From Roseibium porphyridii (GTDB taxonomy: Bacteria; Pseudomonadota; Alphaproteobacteria; Rhizobiales; Stappiaceae): 64,000 nt of DNA. The position numbers were made by a program, and so were the translations under genes. Shown here piece by piece: positions 51,310 to 56,020 of this stretch (the stretch's first letter is position 1; each line of letters starts with the position of its first letter). Below the pieces are notes generated by a model, which saw nothing but the letters and a program-made list of their open reading frames with translations, had not been told where the DNA came from and made no database searches. The stretch spans positions 2,460,001 through 2,524,000 of the forward strand of contig NZ_CP120863.1 in the NCBI RefSeq assembly GCF_026191725.2, read 5' to 3'.

Positions 51310-52881
51310 ATGACAGTGCGCGCGCAACGAACGGCAAACGATTATGGTGTCTTGGTGGAGCCGCTCACCGGCGAGGTGACTGCCTGGCGGAACAACGTCG
51401 TTCTGGCAAGATCCACCAGGGCCCGTGTCATGTATGAAACCCGGCTTCCTCCCGTGGTTTATTTTCCTAAGGACGACATTCGCGCAGATCTGAAACCGGC
51501 ACCTGATTACCGGACATTCTGTCCGCTCAAAGGCACGGCCTCATACAGCGATGTTCAAGTGTCAGGTGAGACGATTGAAAATGGCGCCTGGCATTACCCG
51601 ACCGCCTTGCCTGAAGGGCAGGCCGTTGACGGGTTTCATGCGTTCATGCCCGGTGTTGCCTCTCGCATTGAATATGACGGCAAGCAACTGGACACGCCCT
51701 TTGGCGGCAATATTTCCGGGCCGATTGTCGATTGGCTGCTGCGCGAGGCATGGACGGCACGGACGGCTGAGGAGCTCATTTCAGCTTTGGGCAAAAAGCT
51801 TGTCGAGGACGGTGTCGCCGTTTGCCGGATGACCGTGTTGATCTGGTCCCTTCATCCGATGATCGCTGGCCAGAATTCGATCTGGCAGCGGGACACAGAC
51901 GAGGTTACCAGCCGCTATCCTTCGTACGAGCTTCTGGAAAGTCCGATTTTCAAGAACAGTCCGCTGCAGCATGTGGCAGACGGGTTGGGCGGCGTGAGGC
52001 AGAAACTCGATACCAACCCAGACGAATTCAACTTTCCGATTATGGATGATTTGAGAGAGCAGGGTGTTACCGACTATGTCGCGATGCCGTTGCCCTTCTC
52101 CGATGGTCGGATCAACGTGTTGACGTTGGCCTCTGACCATCCGAATGGTTTTACGACAGCCAATCTGGGATTGATTTTCGAGTGCTCTGCGCTCATCAGC
52201 CGCTTGTTTGAGGTCTTTGCCCTCACGTCGAATGCGACAACGATCCTGGAAACCTATCTTGGCAAGAGAACCGGCGCACGTGTTCTGGGCGGGGAAATTC
52301 GCCGTGGCGATGGCGAAGTTATCGACGCATCGATCCTGTTCTGCGACCTGCGTCATTCGACGCGGCTGGAAACCGAACTCGGGCGCGATGCTTACTTGTC
52401 CGAGTTGAACAGGTTCTTCGAAGTGACGACCGAAATTGTCAACGAGCATGAGGGCGAAGTTCTGAAGTTCATTGGCGATGCGGTTCTTGCTATTTTTCCC
52501 GCAGGTGGGGATCGCGACAAGGCCTGTCGACAGGCCGTGGCCAGTGCAGATCAGATCGTGCAACGTTTGGCGGTCCCCGAAGAAGACGGCAACGGCATTC
52601 CCCTGACATGTGCCATCGGCATTGCCTTTGGTGAAGTCACCTATGGAAATGTAGGCTCAAAAGAACGCCTGGATTTCACCGTGATTGGAAGCGCGGCCAA
52701 CATTGCCGCCCGGCTTGGCGATCATGGCAAGGTTGTCGGTCATCCAATCGTTGCGTCAAAAGATGTTGCCGACGAGGCCGATTGCGGAGCAACGCCACTG
52801 GGCGCTGTTGAATTGCACAATGTTGCAGACCCCGTCGAAGCCTTCGCCGTTAGTGTCTGCCCGGCCGAGACTGCTTCGTAG
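51310..52881 (+). CDS. DUF427 domain fused to a sensor and class III cyclase
   Basis: A 523-residue protein. Residues 10-125 are a DUF427 (NTP_transf_9-type) domain: VMYETRLPPVVYFPKDDI, TFCPLKGTASY and GAWHYP match its consensus. Residues 140-310 are a GAF-like sensor region, and residues 330-510 a class III cyclase with both metal-binding aspartates, D346 (LFCDLRHST) and D390 (FIGDAVLAIFP), and DFTVIGSAANIAARL. It should make a cyclic nucleotide. Without the DUF427 part it is a full-length paralogue of the cyclase at 31457. The two overlap in the sensor region as well as the catalytic domain. Confidence 0.9.
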   Translation: MTVRAQRTANDYGVLVEPLTGEVTAWRNNVVLARSTRARVMYETRLPPVVYFPKDDIRADLKPAPDYRTFCPLKGTASYSDVQVSGETIENGAWHYPTALPEGQAVDGFHAFMPGVASRIEYDGKQLDTPFGGNISGPIVDWLLREAWTARTAEELISALGKKLVEDGVAVCRMTVLIWSLHPMIAGQNSIWQRDTDEVTSRYPSYELLESPIFKNSPLQHVADGLGGVRQKLDTNPDEFNFPIMDDLREQGVTDYVAMPLPFSDGRINVLTLASDHPNGFTTANLGLIFECSALISRLFEVFALTSNATTILETYLGKRTGARVLGGEIRRGDGEVIDASILFCDLRHSTRLETELGRDAYLSELNRFFEVTTEIVNEHEGEVLKFIGDAVLAIFPAGGDRDKACRQAVASADQIVQRLAVPEEDGNGIPLTCAIGIAFGEVTYGNVGSKERLDFTVIGSAANIAARLGDHGKVVGHPIVASKDVADEADCGATPLGAVELHNVADPVEAFAVSVCPAETAS

Positions 52882-52888
52882 CTTAAGT

Positions 52889-54052
52889 TTAGTCCAATTT
52901 TGGCGCACCGCGTTGGAGTGTGCGATCAATGCCTCTCCAATAGGCGAGCCAGAGCAATGGCAGAAAAGCGGCCAGGGCCGCAAGCAACATCGGCAAGGTG
53001 CCCTGATTGTTGTCAATCAGATGTCCGAATAGGGGCGGACCGATCAGCGTTCCGGACAAAGTGGCGATCAATAGCAACGCCTTTGCTTTGCTTGAAAACT
53101 TTTCCGACAAGGCAGCCATGAATGAGGCGGACAACAGGTTCAAAAACAATTCGAATGCAACAAAACTGAATACAATGAAGATGAAACTCTGTTGAGTTGC
53201 GATCAGGATCCCTGAAGACGCGAGCGCTGCCGAAAAGAGAATTTGAAACCAACTTCCGTGCCGGGTGCCGCGCATGGCAACCCAAAGGATCACGAGTGCA
53301 ATCGTAGTTTTTGAGAAGCCTATGGCCAACGACGTATTGTCCAAACTGAGATCGTTGCTCGCTGTGAAATGGGCGGTGTTGGATAAGAAGCCAATTTGCC
53401 CGCAAAAGAATAGAAACAGCAAAGCCAAGCCAAAGCCGTCCAGTCCTGACAGGTGTCCCTTTGCTGGCGGCGCATTGTTTGCACTATGCGTTGGAACTTT
53501 CCGCCAAAGCACCAGACCACTTAGAAACACTGCTATCAGGCCCAGCCCGAACAATGTGATCAGAAGTCGGTAGGTCTGATCCGTCTCAAACAGGGGAAAG
53601 CAAAGTGCGATCAGGCCGGAAATAAAAAGTGCGAAAGAAAGCCGCCACGCAAAGGCCTGGAGTTTCATATTGGATTGGGCAGCTGTCATGATGCCGAATT
53701 GCATCAGAAAGCCACATGCCAGTCCGATCGCGAACCAGCAAAGAGCAAACATGAGAGGCGCGCTCACCCATAGAGACAGGAAAAGCGCTGCAGCATATAC
53801 GCAAAAGACGAAAGCCAATGCAGGTCGCGCGAGCGTTTCATATCGAATTCTTGCGGCCAGGAACGCGGCTACGATCTGACCCGCCATGATACAACTCACA
53901 ACGCTTCCTGCTTCTGCATTCGAAATGGACCGCGTGGCAAGCAGAGTTGCGATGAGCAAAGGAGCAATATGGAGGGGGATGGATCCAGCCGCAGAAAACA
54001 GGGCTGCCCCGACTGTGCGCCTGGTTTCGCTGGAGTTCACTTTTGCCGACAT
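52889..54052 (-). CDS. MFS-type transporter of the repeat-peptide operon
   Basis: A 387-residue integral membrane protein with about 12 hydrophobic helices (for example IAPLLIATLLATRSI, GLACGFLMQFGIMTAAQ, GFGLALLFLFFCGQIGFL), resembling divergent MFS transporters. It is the third gene of the operon starting with the repeat peptide at 55195, with a 67-bp gap after the DUF6065-like gene. It could export the peptide or a product of it, or supply a substrate. The ATG at 54050-54052 is the preferred start; a TTG 21 bases upstream is possible. Confidence 0.75.
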   Translation of the reverse strand: MSAKVNSSETRRTVGAALFSAAGSIPLHIAPLLIATLLATRSISNAEAGSVVSCIMAGQIVAAFLAARIRYETLARPALAFVFCVYAAALFLSLWVSAPLMFALCWFAIGLACGFLMQFGIMTAAQSNMKLQAFAWRLSFALFISGLIALCFPLFETDQTYRLLITLFGLGLIAVFLSGLVLWRKVPTHSANNAPPAKGHLSGLDGFGLALLFLFFCGQIGFLSNTAHFTASNDLSLDNTSLAIGFSKTTIALVILWVAMRGTRHGSWFQILFSAALASSGILIATQQSFIFIVFSFVAFELFLNLLSASFMAALSEKFSSKAKALLLIATLSGTLIGPPLFGHLIDNNQGTLPMLLAALAAFLPLLWLAYWRGIDRTLQRGAPKLD

Positions 54053-54119
54053 CTGTCGAAGCGAGCTTTGCAAGAGAATGCGTGGCTTGAAGCGAAGCCA
54101 TTCGGCTCAAATTCGCGTT

Positions 54120-54929
54120 TCATTCCTCAGTGCCTGCCTTCTTGCGACGGCGCGTCGCAGCGCCATATCCACCAGGACGATGACTGTCACGCTGTGTCAT
54201 GTCGCGAACGGTTCCACGAAAACCATTCCAGTCGAAGGGTTGATCGGGTCTGCCGAGAGTTTCCTGAATTTCTGTCTTGAGCGCGGCGTCCTGGTAGCAG
54301 GCTCGCTCAATTGGCTGGACTTGAAACAACGGCTTGAAATGCGGAATGTAGATTTCTTGCCCCGTCGTCAGGAGCTTGATGTTGATGAAAAGCGGACAGG
54401 GTTGAAAGAGATCGGTCTCGACAAGGCCTTCATAGCAGACAAAAGCGCTGCGCGTGTCATAGTTGACCGGAGGTCTAATGAGCGTACTCCAGCCAGCTCG
54501 AGAACTGACAAAATAGCCAGACCAAATCTGAATCGAGCCGGGAACGAAGAGTTCAGATAAATAAGGCGGGTCCAGATCACGCAGGTCCTCAGGAGCATTC
54601 TCCTCCCAATGTTGCCTGAAATCCTCATCCTCGAAGTTGGTTGATTTAACCGGATACCATTGATCGTCTTCGTAAAAGAAGCTCTCTTTTCCATCGAAAA
54701 GAAGGTGGATGTCCTTTGGAGGATAAACATACCATCCAAAGGAGGAAGCTTCCCGCATGGCTTGGCAGTATTGAAAGGCCGCTGCAGGCATAGTGCCTGC
54801 TGCGCTCTTTTCCGCTCGCCGGATATCCGGCGCTGATGGGAAAGCCTTCGTAAAGCGGAGCACTGCCTCGCTTTCTGTTTCCGGTACAGATCCTCCGACA
54901 GTGGTGGAAACAGTCATGGTTTTGTCCAT
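54120..54929 (-). CDS. DUF6065-like protein of the repeat-peptide operon
   Basis: A 269-residue soluble protein, rich in W, Y and F. The segment WSTLIRPPVNYDTRSAFVCYEGLVETD, followed by PLFINIKLLTTGQEIYIPHFKPLFQVQPIER, resembles the DUF6065 pattern (a GxVETD motif after a pair of strands and a closing PV). The fold and reaction of that family are not established to my knowledge. It starts 20 bases after the stop of the repeat peptide. The C-terminal 45 residues are basic. It may bind or modify the peptide; that is inference from position. Confidence 0.7.
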   Translation of the reverse strand: MDKTMTVSTTVGGSVPETESEAVLRFTKAFPSAPDIRRAEKSAAGTMPAAAFQYCQAMREASSFGWYVYPPKDIHLLFDGKESFFYEDDQWYPVKSTNFEDEDFRQHWEENAPEDLRDLDPPYLSELFVPGSIQIWSGYFVSSRAGWSTLIRPPVNYDTRSAFVCYEGLVETDLFQPCPLFINIKLLTTGQEIYIPHFKPLFQVQPIERACYQDAALKTEIQETLGRPDQPFDWNGFRGTVRDMTQRDSHRPGGYGAATRRRKKAGTEE

Positions 54930-54949
54930 TCGCCGGAGGATCCGTTCAA

Positions 54950-55195
54950 TCAGATACGCACAGGCGCGACACCGCCACCCATTGAGCTTCGGGAACTCAT
55001 TTTGACTTTAACAGGTGCCAAGCCCCCTCCGATCGATGCCTTTGCAGATGGCTTCACTACAGGCGCGATACCGCCGCCCATGCTGCTGCGCGAAAGCGGT
55101 TTGAGAGTAACCGGCGCGACCCCACCACCCATGGAGGCAGGCGCTGCGGTTTTGACCTTTGTAAGTGGCTTCGTTGTTCTAATTGTCTTGTGCAT
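54950..55195 (-). CDS. Basic four-repeat peptide, SxGGG(V/I/L)APV family
   Basis: An 81-residue peptide with four near-identical cores: SMGGGVAPV (21-29), SMGGGIAPV (38-46), SIGGGLAPV (54-62) and SMGGGVAPV (71-79), spaced 17, 16 and 17 residues apart. The linkers hold only small, Lys and Arg residues. The protein has no acidic, aromatic or cysteine residue and is strongly basic. ATG 55193-55195 has an AGAAGGGGA ribosome site, which supports a real, well-translated gene. It resembles a multi-core precursor peptide, but a basic nucleic-acid-binding or structural role is possible. It opens the operon with a DUF6065-like protein and an MFS transporter. Confidence 0.85.
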   Translation of the reverse strand: MHKTIRTTKPLTKVKTAAPASMGGGVAPVTLKPLSRSSMGGGIAPVVKPSAKASIGGGLAPVKVKMSSRSSMGGGVAPVRI

Positions 55196-55473
55196 CAGAG
55201 AATTCCCCTTCTGGTAGCGTCAATTAAAATTTACACTTAACAAAATTAACTATGTTTCCAGCAGGAAGTGCTGTCAATGGTTGAATTGTTTTTCGAAAGT
55301 GCACGGCTGAATTGTAGAAGGCAATTCGTGGAGAGCGCTTGATCTGTCAAAGGCGATCGGCGTTGAGAACCGGTTTGAACAGCTCATCAAAGCACCGTTG
55401 GCCAACTATCCAGATTGTATGGAGAGTGATTTCCTGACTGAGACTACAGAATAAAAAAGATCTTTTTTCCGGT
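55196..55473. other. Promoter region of the repeat-peptide operon
   Basis: About 280 bases. The first 70 upstream of the peptide (55,215-55,265) are AT-rich with TTAATTTTGTTAAGTG on the minus strand, a possible promoter. No gene or strong hairpin is visible in the rest. Confidence 0.45.
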
Positions 55474-55755
55474 TCAGCGGACGGTTTTCTCGCCGTGGAA
55501 GCCGCCCATTGGTTGGTTGCGTACCAGAATTACCAAGCCTTGCTTGCTAGGCTCCGCGTCGTTCTGGGCAACACCACCGTAATTTGCGCAGAGTTCTTCG
55601 GCGCTTTTGTTTTGGGTGGGAGTGAACATGGTGATGGCCTGGCAGTCGACACGCCGCAGCTCGCTGTCGGTGATCGACCCACCCGACAAGCTAAAGCCAA
55701 GCCCGGCCAGAGCCAGCGCGAAAGTGGTGGTGGTTGCAAAGGCAAACTTGTTCAT
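55474..55755 (-). CDS. Small exported hypothetical protein
   Basis: A 93-residue protein with a signal peptide (MNKFAFATTTTFALALAGLGFSL) and a mature part with two cysteines (VDCQAI and ELCANYGG), likely forming a disulfide in the periplasm. The start is ATG 55753-55755, with GGGG upstream. I do not recognise the family. Confidence 0.55.
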   Translation of the reverse strand: MNKFAFATTTTFALALAGLGFSLSGGSITDSELRRVDCQAITMFTPTQNKSAEELCANYGGVAQNDAEPSKQGLVILVRNQPMGGFHGEKTVR

Positions 55756-56020
55756 AATCCCCGGTCCCATTTCCCGGCCCACCGTTTCGGCAGGCCCTGC
55801 GATATGGTCGGAAAATGGCGGAACACACCTGTACTCTCACTGAAATCCCCATTCACCTGACGTTCAGCTTAGGTGATTCGCTAACATTTGCCGAACAATC
55901 GGCCAAATTTGGCCAAATTCGATTCGGGTTTGCGTTGGATAACGTGTGATTTTTCGCGGTTTATCGCCAAACGCGAAGTCGAGCCGACTTAGGTCGGTGG
56001 CCCGGGAAATCTTCATTTCC

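Follow-up and report, generated by a model that had tools for sequence, protein, structure and literature searches.

In the stretch of DNA that we analysed (the window; 64,000 nucleotides from Roseibium porphyridii), a gene for a short peptide of four repeated units stands directly upstream of a gene for a DUF6065-like protein, and a comparison of loci shows that this coupling of a repeat peptide to one clade of DUF6065-like proteins holds across lineages. Phages and distant bacteria alike pair such a peptide, with repeats of other sequence, with a partner predicted to have the dUTPase fold, and the pairing is probably a system for making or binding peptides that is as yet undescribed. The features of the window are collected in Table 1.

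Table 1. Features of the window, with the grounds for each.
Feature	Positions	Strand	Basis
Promoter-like TTGACA-N17-CATAGT, upstream of the peptide	55249..55277	-	consensus match only
Repeat peptide, 81 aa, four SxGGGxAPV units	54950..55195	-	ORF listing, ATG start; architecture and position recur in other lineages
DUF6065-like protein, 269 aa, predicted dUTPase fold	54120..54929	-	sub-cut-off Pfam PF19541, model and fold matches, tree clade
MFS transporter, 394 aa from TTG (ATG at 54052)	52889..54073	-	sub-cut-off PF07690, homology to G502/G565
Cassette, between the conserved DUF427-cyclase gene and a conserved small gene	52882..55473	.	empty site in relatives

The first-pass annotation had described four SxGGG(V/I/L)APV copies at a period of 16-17 residues in a basic peptide free of acidic, aromatic and cysteine residues, with a strong ribosome site and a DUF6065-like gene on the same strand after a gap of 20 bp, and all of this was borne out. 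Twenty residues precede the first unit, and the units (SMGGGVAPV, SMGGGIAPV, SIGGGLAPV and SMGGGVAPV in order) start at residues 21, 38, 54 and 71, a spacing of 17/16/17. Its composition includes 13 K+R, with D, E, C, F, W and Y all missing, and the ribosome site AGAAGGGG ends 9 bases 5' of the peptide's ATG. On the minus strand the cassette runs from the peptide through the DUF6065-like gene to the MFS gene; the gap of 67 bp given for the latter holds from its ATG and becomes 46 bp if the upstream TTG is the start. The exact spelling of the promoter-like site occurs once within the window, and the scan for such sites found 2 against a mean of 1.5 in shuffles, a total not above chance. No Rfam element was found near the peptide (54900-55800) at gathering thresholds.

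Compared with L003, a 98%-identical relative, the window shows 12 synonymous base changes in the peptide frame, one of them in the stop codon, and 3 non-synonymous ones, which fall in 2 codons outside the units. By this balance of 12 to 3, the frame is under protein-level selection. Pairs of units within the peptide differ by 5-8 synonymous and 0-3 non-synonymous changes per 27 bases. A direct homologue search with the peptide (E <= 0.1) matched 27 of the 87 genomes of the family, with only three real matches: the window genome, the same species and G069. The other 24 were rejected as chance (best E 0.00276, identity 22-47%, many with internal stops), and a Pfam match to SepZ (E 0.012, 16.3 bits, cut-off 27.3) was set aside as composition noise. 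The peptides of other lineages were reached through the partner gene, after the direct search had given these chance matches.

The gene on one flank (51310-52881) encodes DUF427 fused to a nucleotide-cyclase domain and is conserved in many Roseibium genomes; the small gene on the other lies at 55474-55755. We looked for the DUF427-cyclase gene in 45 genomes of the genus and took its 20 best loci. The cassette is present at 3 of these 20 (the window, the same species and G069), and the remaining 17, which lack it, have 11-175 bp between the cyclase gene and the small gene. This empty site implies that the peptide, the DUF6065-like gene and the MFS gene arrived or left together, and by this comparison the three genes are a discrete insertion. 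No target-site repeat was identified by eye at the cassette ends. The DUF6065-like protein of Labrenzia sp. THAF82 is 99.6% identical to that of the window, and that of a Roseibium assembly 98%.

To measure the coupling, a tandem repeat was defined as a pair of 9-residue stretches identical at 7 or more positions, and one script with one threshold was used for all loci. A tandem-repeat ORF stands upstream in 21 and downstream in none of 40 DUF6065-like loci, which are not independent: the genus of G127 supplies 9 of them, genus g6 supplies 8 and the window's species with its near relative 3, and there are near-duplicate pairs (L102/L103, L116/L117 and L233/L234). Beside canonical DUF6065 genes, by contrast, such an ORF was found upstream at 4 of 110 loci (all unrelated and none with the unit) and downstream at 2 of 115. 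Five loci with too little upstream DNA (L107, L108, L110, L111 and L113), one broken gene in two pieces (L016/L018) and repeat fetches of the same loci were left out of the 40. By our own grouping, the lineages with tandem repeats upstream number eight: Roseibium, G565/G644, G502, G272, the G127 genus, Rhizobium, the L104/L106 phage clade and L115. A looser unit pattern, composed after the units were seen and descriptive only, is present upstream at 37/40 and downstream at 5/40, compared with 6/110 and 13/115 at canonical loci. In a tree of 63 rows chosen by hand, the peptide association is a single change of state, although two rows labelled peptide-bearing (L007 and L012) have upstream ORFs without a clear unit and relabelling them would raise that count. 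The peptide-associated clade holds 33 rows (SH-aLRT 90), and the places of the long branches L134, L233 and L116 are unsure. Co-occurrence of the peptide with DUF6065 proteins across genomes, whose absence the first-pass annotation had said would refute it, was found. The outline that it gave of a multi-core peptide locus is supported in part, in that repeat peptides lie upstream of the clade and the order of peptide, DUF6065 gene and transporter recurs, with a partner that is not a known RiPP enzyme.

The repeats vary greatly from one lineage to another. The DUF6065-like gene is present in 14 of the 87 genomes of the window's family; eight of these, in genus g6, have before it a conserved 35-aa frame with a single NGG(L/M)AP, G039 has a 28-aa ORF without this motif, and the basic frame of G050 and G038, 46 residues long, shows no clear repeat. 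(In G038 the DUF6065-like gene, L223, is split into two frames, and its pieces were read separately.) A class-wide profile search of 385 genomes gave four further full-length relatives, all with a repeat peptide directly upstream that is built of 2-4 LGNMSPAFKV-type or 10 KVKLGMMAPAFGKS-type units, the matches in the other 18 genomes being partial ones to canonical DUF6065. Nine of 25 genomes in the family of G127 have the gene, and the six loci newly met there carry 2-7 units of GNMSPAF type. Order-wide it was found in 3 further genomes among 199 (G565, G644 and G502). The peptides of G565 and G644:C92 have 10 and 9 units of the type IEIAGGMNPPRV / KIEIAGGMNPPRVKPVS, that of G502 has 12 of the type VRMGSGELPPRV / VRMGSGELPPRVAKHVKAT, that of G644:C198 is 60 aa long with two half-similar units, and two Rhizobium plasmids encode a peptide of three VHIANKSPAFDV-type units. 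Across 398 genomes of the phylum, wider spread of the clade was not found: of the 6 genomes with a match, that of the window alone covered the whole profile, and the partial matches of the other 5 were canonical DUF6065. The units share an outline of a hydrophobic residue, Gly/Ala, a few small or polar residues and Pro. No common leader was seen among the peptides, whose N-terminal segments differ between lineages, and in L082 the first unit comes directly after the start codon (MTKVRIGMMAPVF), with GAGGAGG just upstream.

Other genes were noted around the pair. A DsbA-like protein gene (L217:3946-4599, G127) and a PNPOx-like protein gene (L221:5083-5631, g6) directly follow the DUF6065-like gene in their genomes, and large TPR proteins, possible regulators, are encoded near the pair in G272 (L219:6041-8068, with a BTAD activator domain) and G502 (L212:6281-7960, TPR only). 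A divergent DUF6065 gene is found on two Sinorhizobium medicae conjugative plasmids (L233 and L234) in the vicinity of amidohydrolase and S8 peptidase genes, and on one of the two plasmids a methyltransferase gene adjoins it.

A transporter lies directly beside the pair in five lineages, the window's included. In G565, G644:C92 and G502 its gene is directly downstream, and the window MFS protein, whose PF07690 match is below the cut-off (E 3.9e-6), is homologous to those of G502 (26%, E 2e-30) and G565 (27%, E 5e-18). The G565 protein, for which Pfam gave nothing at E <= 0.001, is classed as MFS on its homology to the window's; the G644 transporter matches it at 39%. BLASTP finds no real similarity between the Rhizobium MFS protein and the window's (best E 0.06), and at G644:C198 the neighbour of the pair is an EamA permease, so that unrelated transporters were recruited. 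That different transporters adjoin the same pair suggests that the cassette works in part by transport of a small product or substrate. Transporters of the MFS and EamA families are expected to carry small molecules, which fits a short product. As evidence to the contrary, among ORFs that were listed and partly annotated, no transporter stands directly beside the pair on its strand at five G127-genus loci with wider context, in G272, in g6 or in G050. In G039 an MFS match below threshold lies in the same direction but one gene further along, and at the two g6 loci tested an EamA gene lies on the opposite strand at a distance of about 2.3 kb. A family-5 solute-binding protein gene (L219:2596-4272; PF00496, E 6.5e-86) converges on the pair in G272, and the MFS gene beside the pair in Rhizobium WSM4643 (L102:5867-6885) is interrupted relative to SRDI969.

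The explanation that we favour, and whose chances we put at about even, is a transferable cassette for a small peptide product. The three genes would form one such cassette, in which the peptide serves as a precursor of several units, lacks a common leader and has in each unit both the recognition and the product sequence. The DUF6065-like protein, probably as a trimer, would bind the units and most likely modify them, proteases would release unit-sized products, and the MFS or EamA transporter would export them. The sequences themselves show the coupling, the insertion, the selection and the turnover of repeats, the fold is predicted, and binding, modification, cleavage and export of the units are steps that we infer. 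Pfam and NCBIfam gave no modifying enzyme, leader or protease of a known type in the cassette; for the DUF6065-like and MFS proteins, NCBIfam had nothing and Pfam only DUF6065 and MFS, with no known RiPP enzyme class. We count this against the explanation, together with the many loci that have no transporter directly beside the pair, the single-unit peptides of g6 and several phage loci, the short upstream ORFs of G039, G050 and G038 without a clear unit, the non-significant profile comparisons with dUTPases, the variable residue at the catalytic-Asp position and the head-gene surroundings of L115.

The label "DUF6065-like" calls for one correction: the match to PF19541 is weak (19.5 bits, under the gathering cut-off of 26.6), and the protein falls in a separate clade of the tree, some members of which (G127 with 38.2 bits, G254 with 30.1 bits) do pass the cut-off. 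Its predicted model matches the dUTPase (beta-clip) fold, and because of that fold it is probably trimeric. Unlike dUTPases, it has extra N- and C-terminal parts and no match to PF00692 at E <= 1. A sequence search for a known structure gave one match (E 1.4), and four hhalign profile comparisons of DUF6065 with dUTPases were not significant (P 0.042, 0.3, 0.32 and 0.35). The best alignment, a weak one (P 0.042), sets Glu171-Thr-Asp against the Asp-Ser-Asp of motif III in E. coli Dut, and the second (P 0.3) also sets Glu171 at the position of the catalytic Asp (motif III, G-x-I-D-x-D-Y). Across 41 sequences, position 171 is occupied by Glu 36 times, by Ala 4 times and by Asp once.

Canonical DUF6065 (PF19541) is a distant homologue with the same predicted fold, and has in common with the clade the invariant Cys55, Gly65, Asn156 and Asn183 (window numbering), but the repeat peptide is upstream at none of its 110 loci. 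PF19541 was found in 45 of 385 class genomes, in 41 over the cut-off, with a few members of the peptide clade, such as G127 and G254, among them. In IMG/VR 124 stretches encode canonical DUF6065, of which 80 were kept (L118-L197). Among nine long canonical ORFs tested (L059, L065, L069, L064 and L176 were noted), fusions to Cupin_8/JmjC occur in three and a fusion to SapC in one, and a fifth shows a SET match below threshold, which hints at protein modification by these proteins without a repeat peptide. No mention of DUF6065 as a whole word was found in the open literature searched.

The predicted fold of the partner also lends itself to a tentative alternative, rather improbable in our judgement, in which the repeat peptide is a multivalent ligand or regulator of the DUF6065-like trimer. 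One unit would sit on each subunit, assembling or switching a nucleotide-binding protein whose small molecule the transporter carries. dUTPases are known to be held by protein ligands, Stl complexes are among the fold matches, and some peptides have only one unit, with single- and multi-unit forms in one clade. Against this, units and linkers turn over fully between the window's protein and its closest relatives, G565 (57%), G644:C92 (48%) and G502 (47%), all of which have wholly different repeats; this is faster than expected of a docking motif, and the unit number rises to 10-12. The same fold underlies a more specific form of the cassette explanation, namely that the DUF6065-like proteins are a new class of peptide-modifying enzyme which, for example, transfers a nucleotide-derived group onto each unit, which would take the place that water has in a dUTPase. 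We regard it as unlikely, the variation at position 171 counting against it.

The phage relatives raise the alternative that the pair is a phage-borne accessory module (a moron or a head-associated pair) kept by some bacteria, with a peptide that acts in the cell or virion and is not exported. Fourteen IMG/VR contigs encode the clade or its nearest outgroup at 25-39% identity. Upstream of the partner, L106 has IRLGGALRLP twice, L104 an IRIGGAV-type unit twice and L115 a VKLGASCRTPA-type unit four times, while L105, L112 and L114 have a single IRxGAGxRxP unit; L109 has no tandem repeat upstream and L116/L117 no unit. Terminase genes follow in L104, L105, L106 and L109, portal genes in L104 and L109, and the L115 pair neighbours genes for a head maturation protease and a major head protein, a setting that does not readily suggest a secreted product. 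Bacterial loci with wider context, however, contain no phage genes that we could see, and transporters adjoin some of them. The two phage-type queries, the L115 and L106 proteins, found no named phage relatives in 50,697 annotated phage records, and PADLOC gave no anti-phage defence match in 5 proteins. We think this alternative quite unlikely, and a role in defence was dropped on the PADLOC result.

The cassette resembles two known kinds of peptide system in outline. Microcin C depends on a single main modifying enzyme, MccB, and its MccC is of the MFS class. Like microcin C, a very short ribosomal peptide with a transport protein encoded by mccC (PMC6795089), the cassette sets a transport protein beside a ribosomal peptide, but the window peptide is long and repetitive, and Pfam found no MccB-like nucleotidyl-transferase domain in the three genes. 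With multi-core RiPPs (microviridin AMdnA/AMdnC and the cyanobactins) it shares near-identical cores in one short precursor that is co-inherited with a partner gene. The microviridin paper terms multi-core processing rare (PMC5934393). AMdnC is a leader-guided ATP-grasp ligase, whereas no common leader is seen here and the cassette has no known RiPP enzyme. Having the known enzyme of neither system, it is filed under neither. Literature searches joining dUTPase with RiPP and precursor peptide gave nothing relevant, and broader searches of the open literature gave nothing on the cassette. A short ribosomal peptide beside a small-molecule transporter could also be a scaffold for a small molecule, as in pearlin-type pathways (PMC9303977, PMC9016710), with the small molecule as the exported cargo. 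We hold this to be very unlikely, as the three genes include no peptide aminoacyl-tRNA ligase or other known scaffold enzyme and repeats would be unusual for a scaffold modified at its C-terminus. The first-pass alternative of a basic nucleic-acid-binding peptide drew on the 13 K+R and missing acidic residues of the window peptide and is highly improbable, since the charge is not conserved (9 K+R against 14 D+E in Rhizobium, 7 against 6 in L202, 36 against 26 in G660).

If the favoured explanation is right, the cassette is a genetically tractable peptide system, and one that is expected to escape finders keyed to known RiPP enzymes or leaders. Part of a widespread and function-less protein family then gains a concrete substrate candidate, and one may ask what use a dUTPase-shaped protein has for a peptide. 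The replacement of units next to a conserved partner offers a ready-made series of substrate variants with which specificity could be tested. If DUF6065-like proteins do modify peptides on a dUTPase fold, the cassette would stand for a multi-core class of products that lacks a common leader and is shared by bacteria and phages, its units being rewritten from one lineage to the next.
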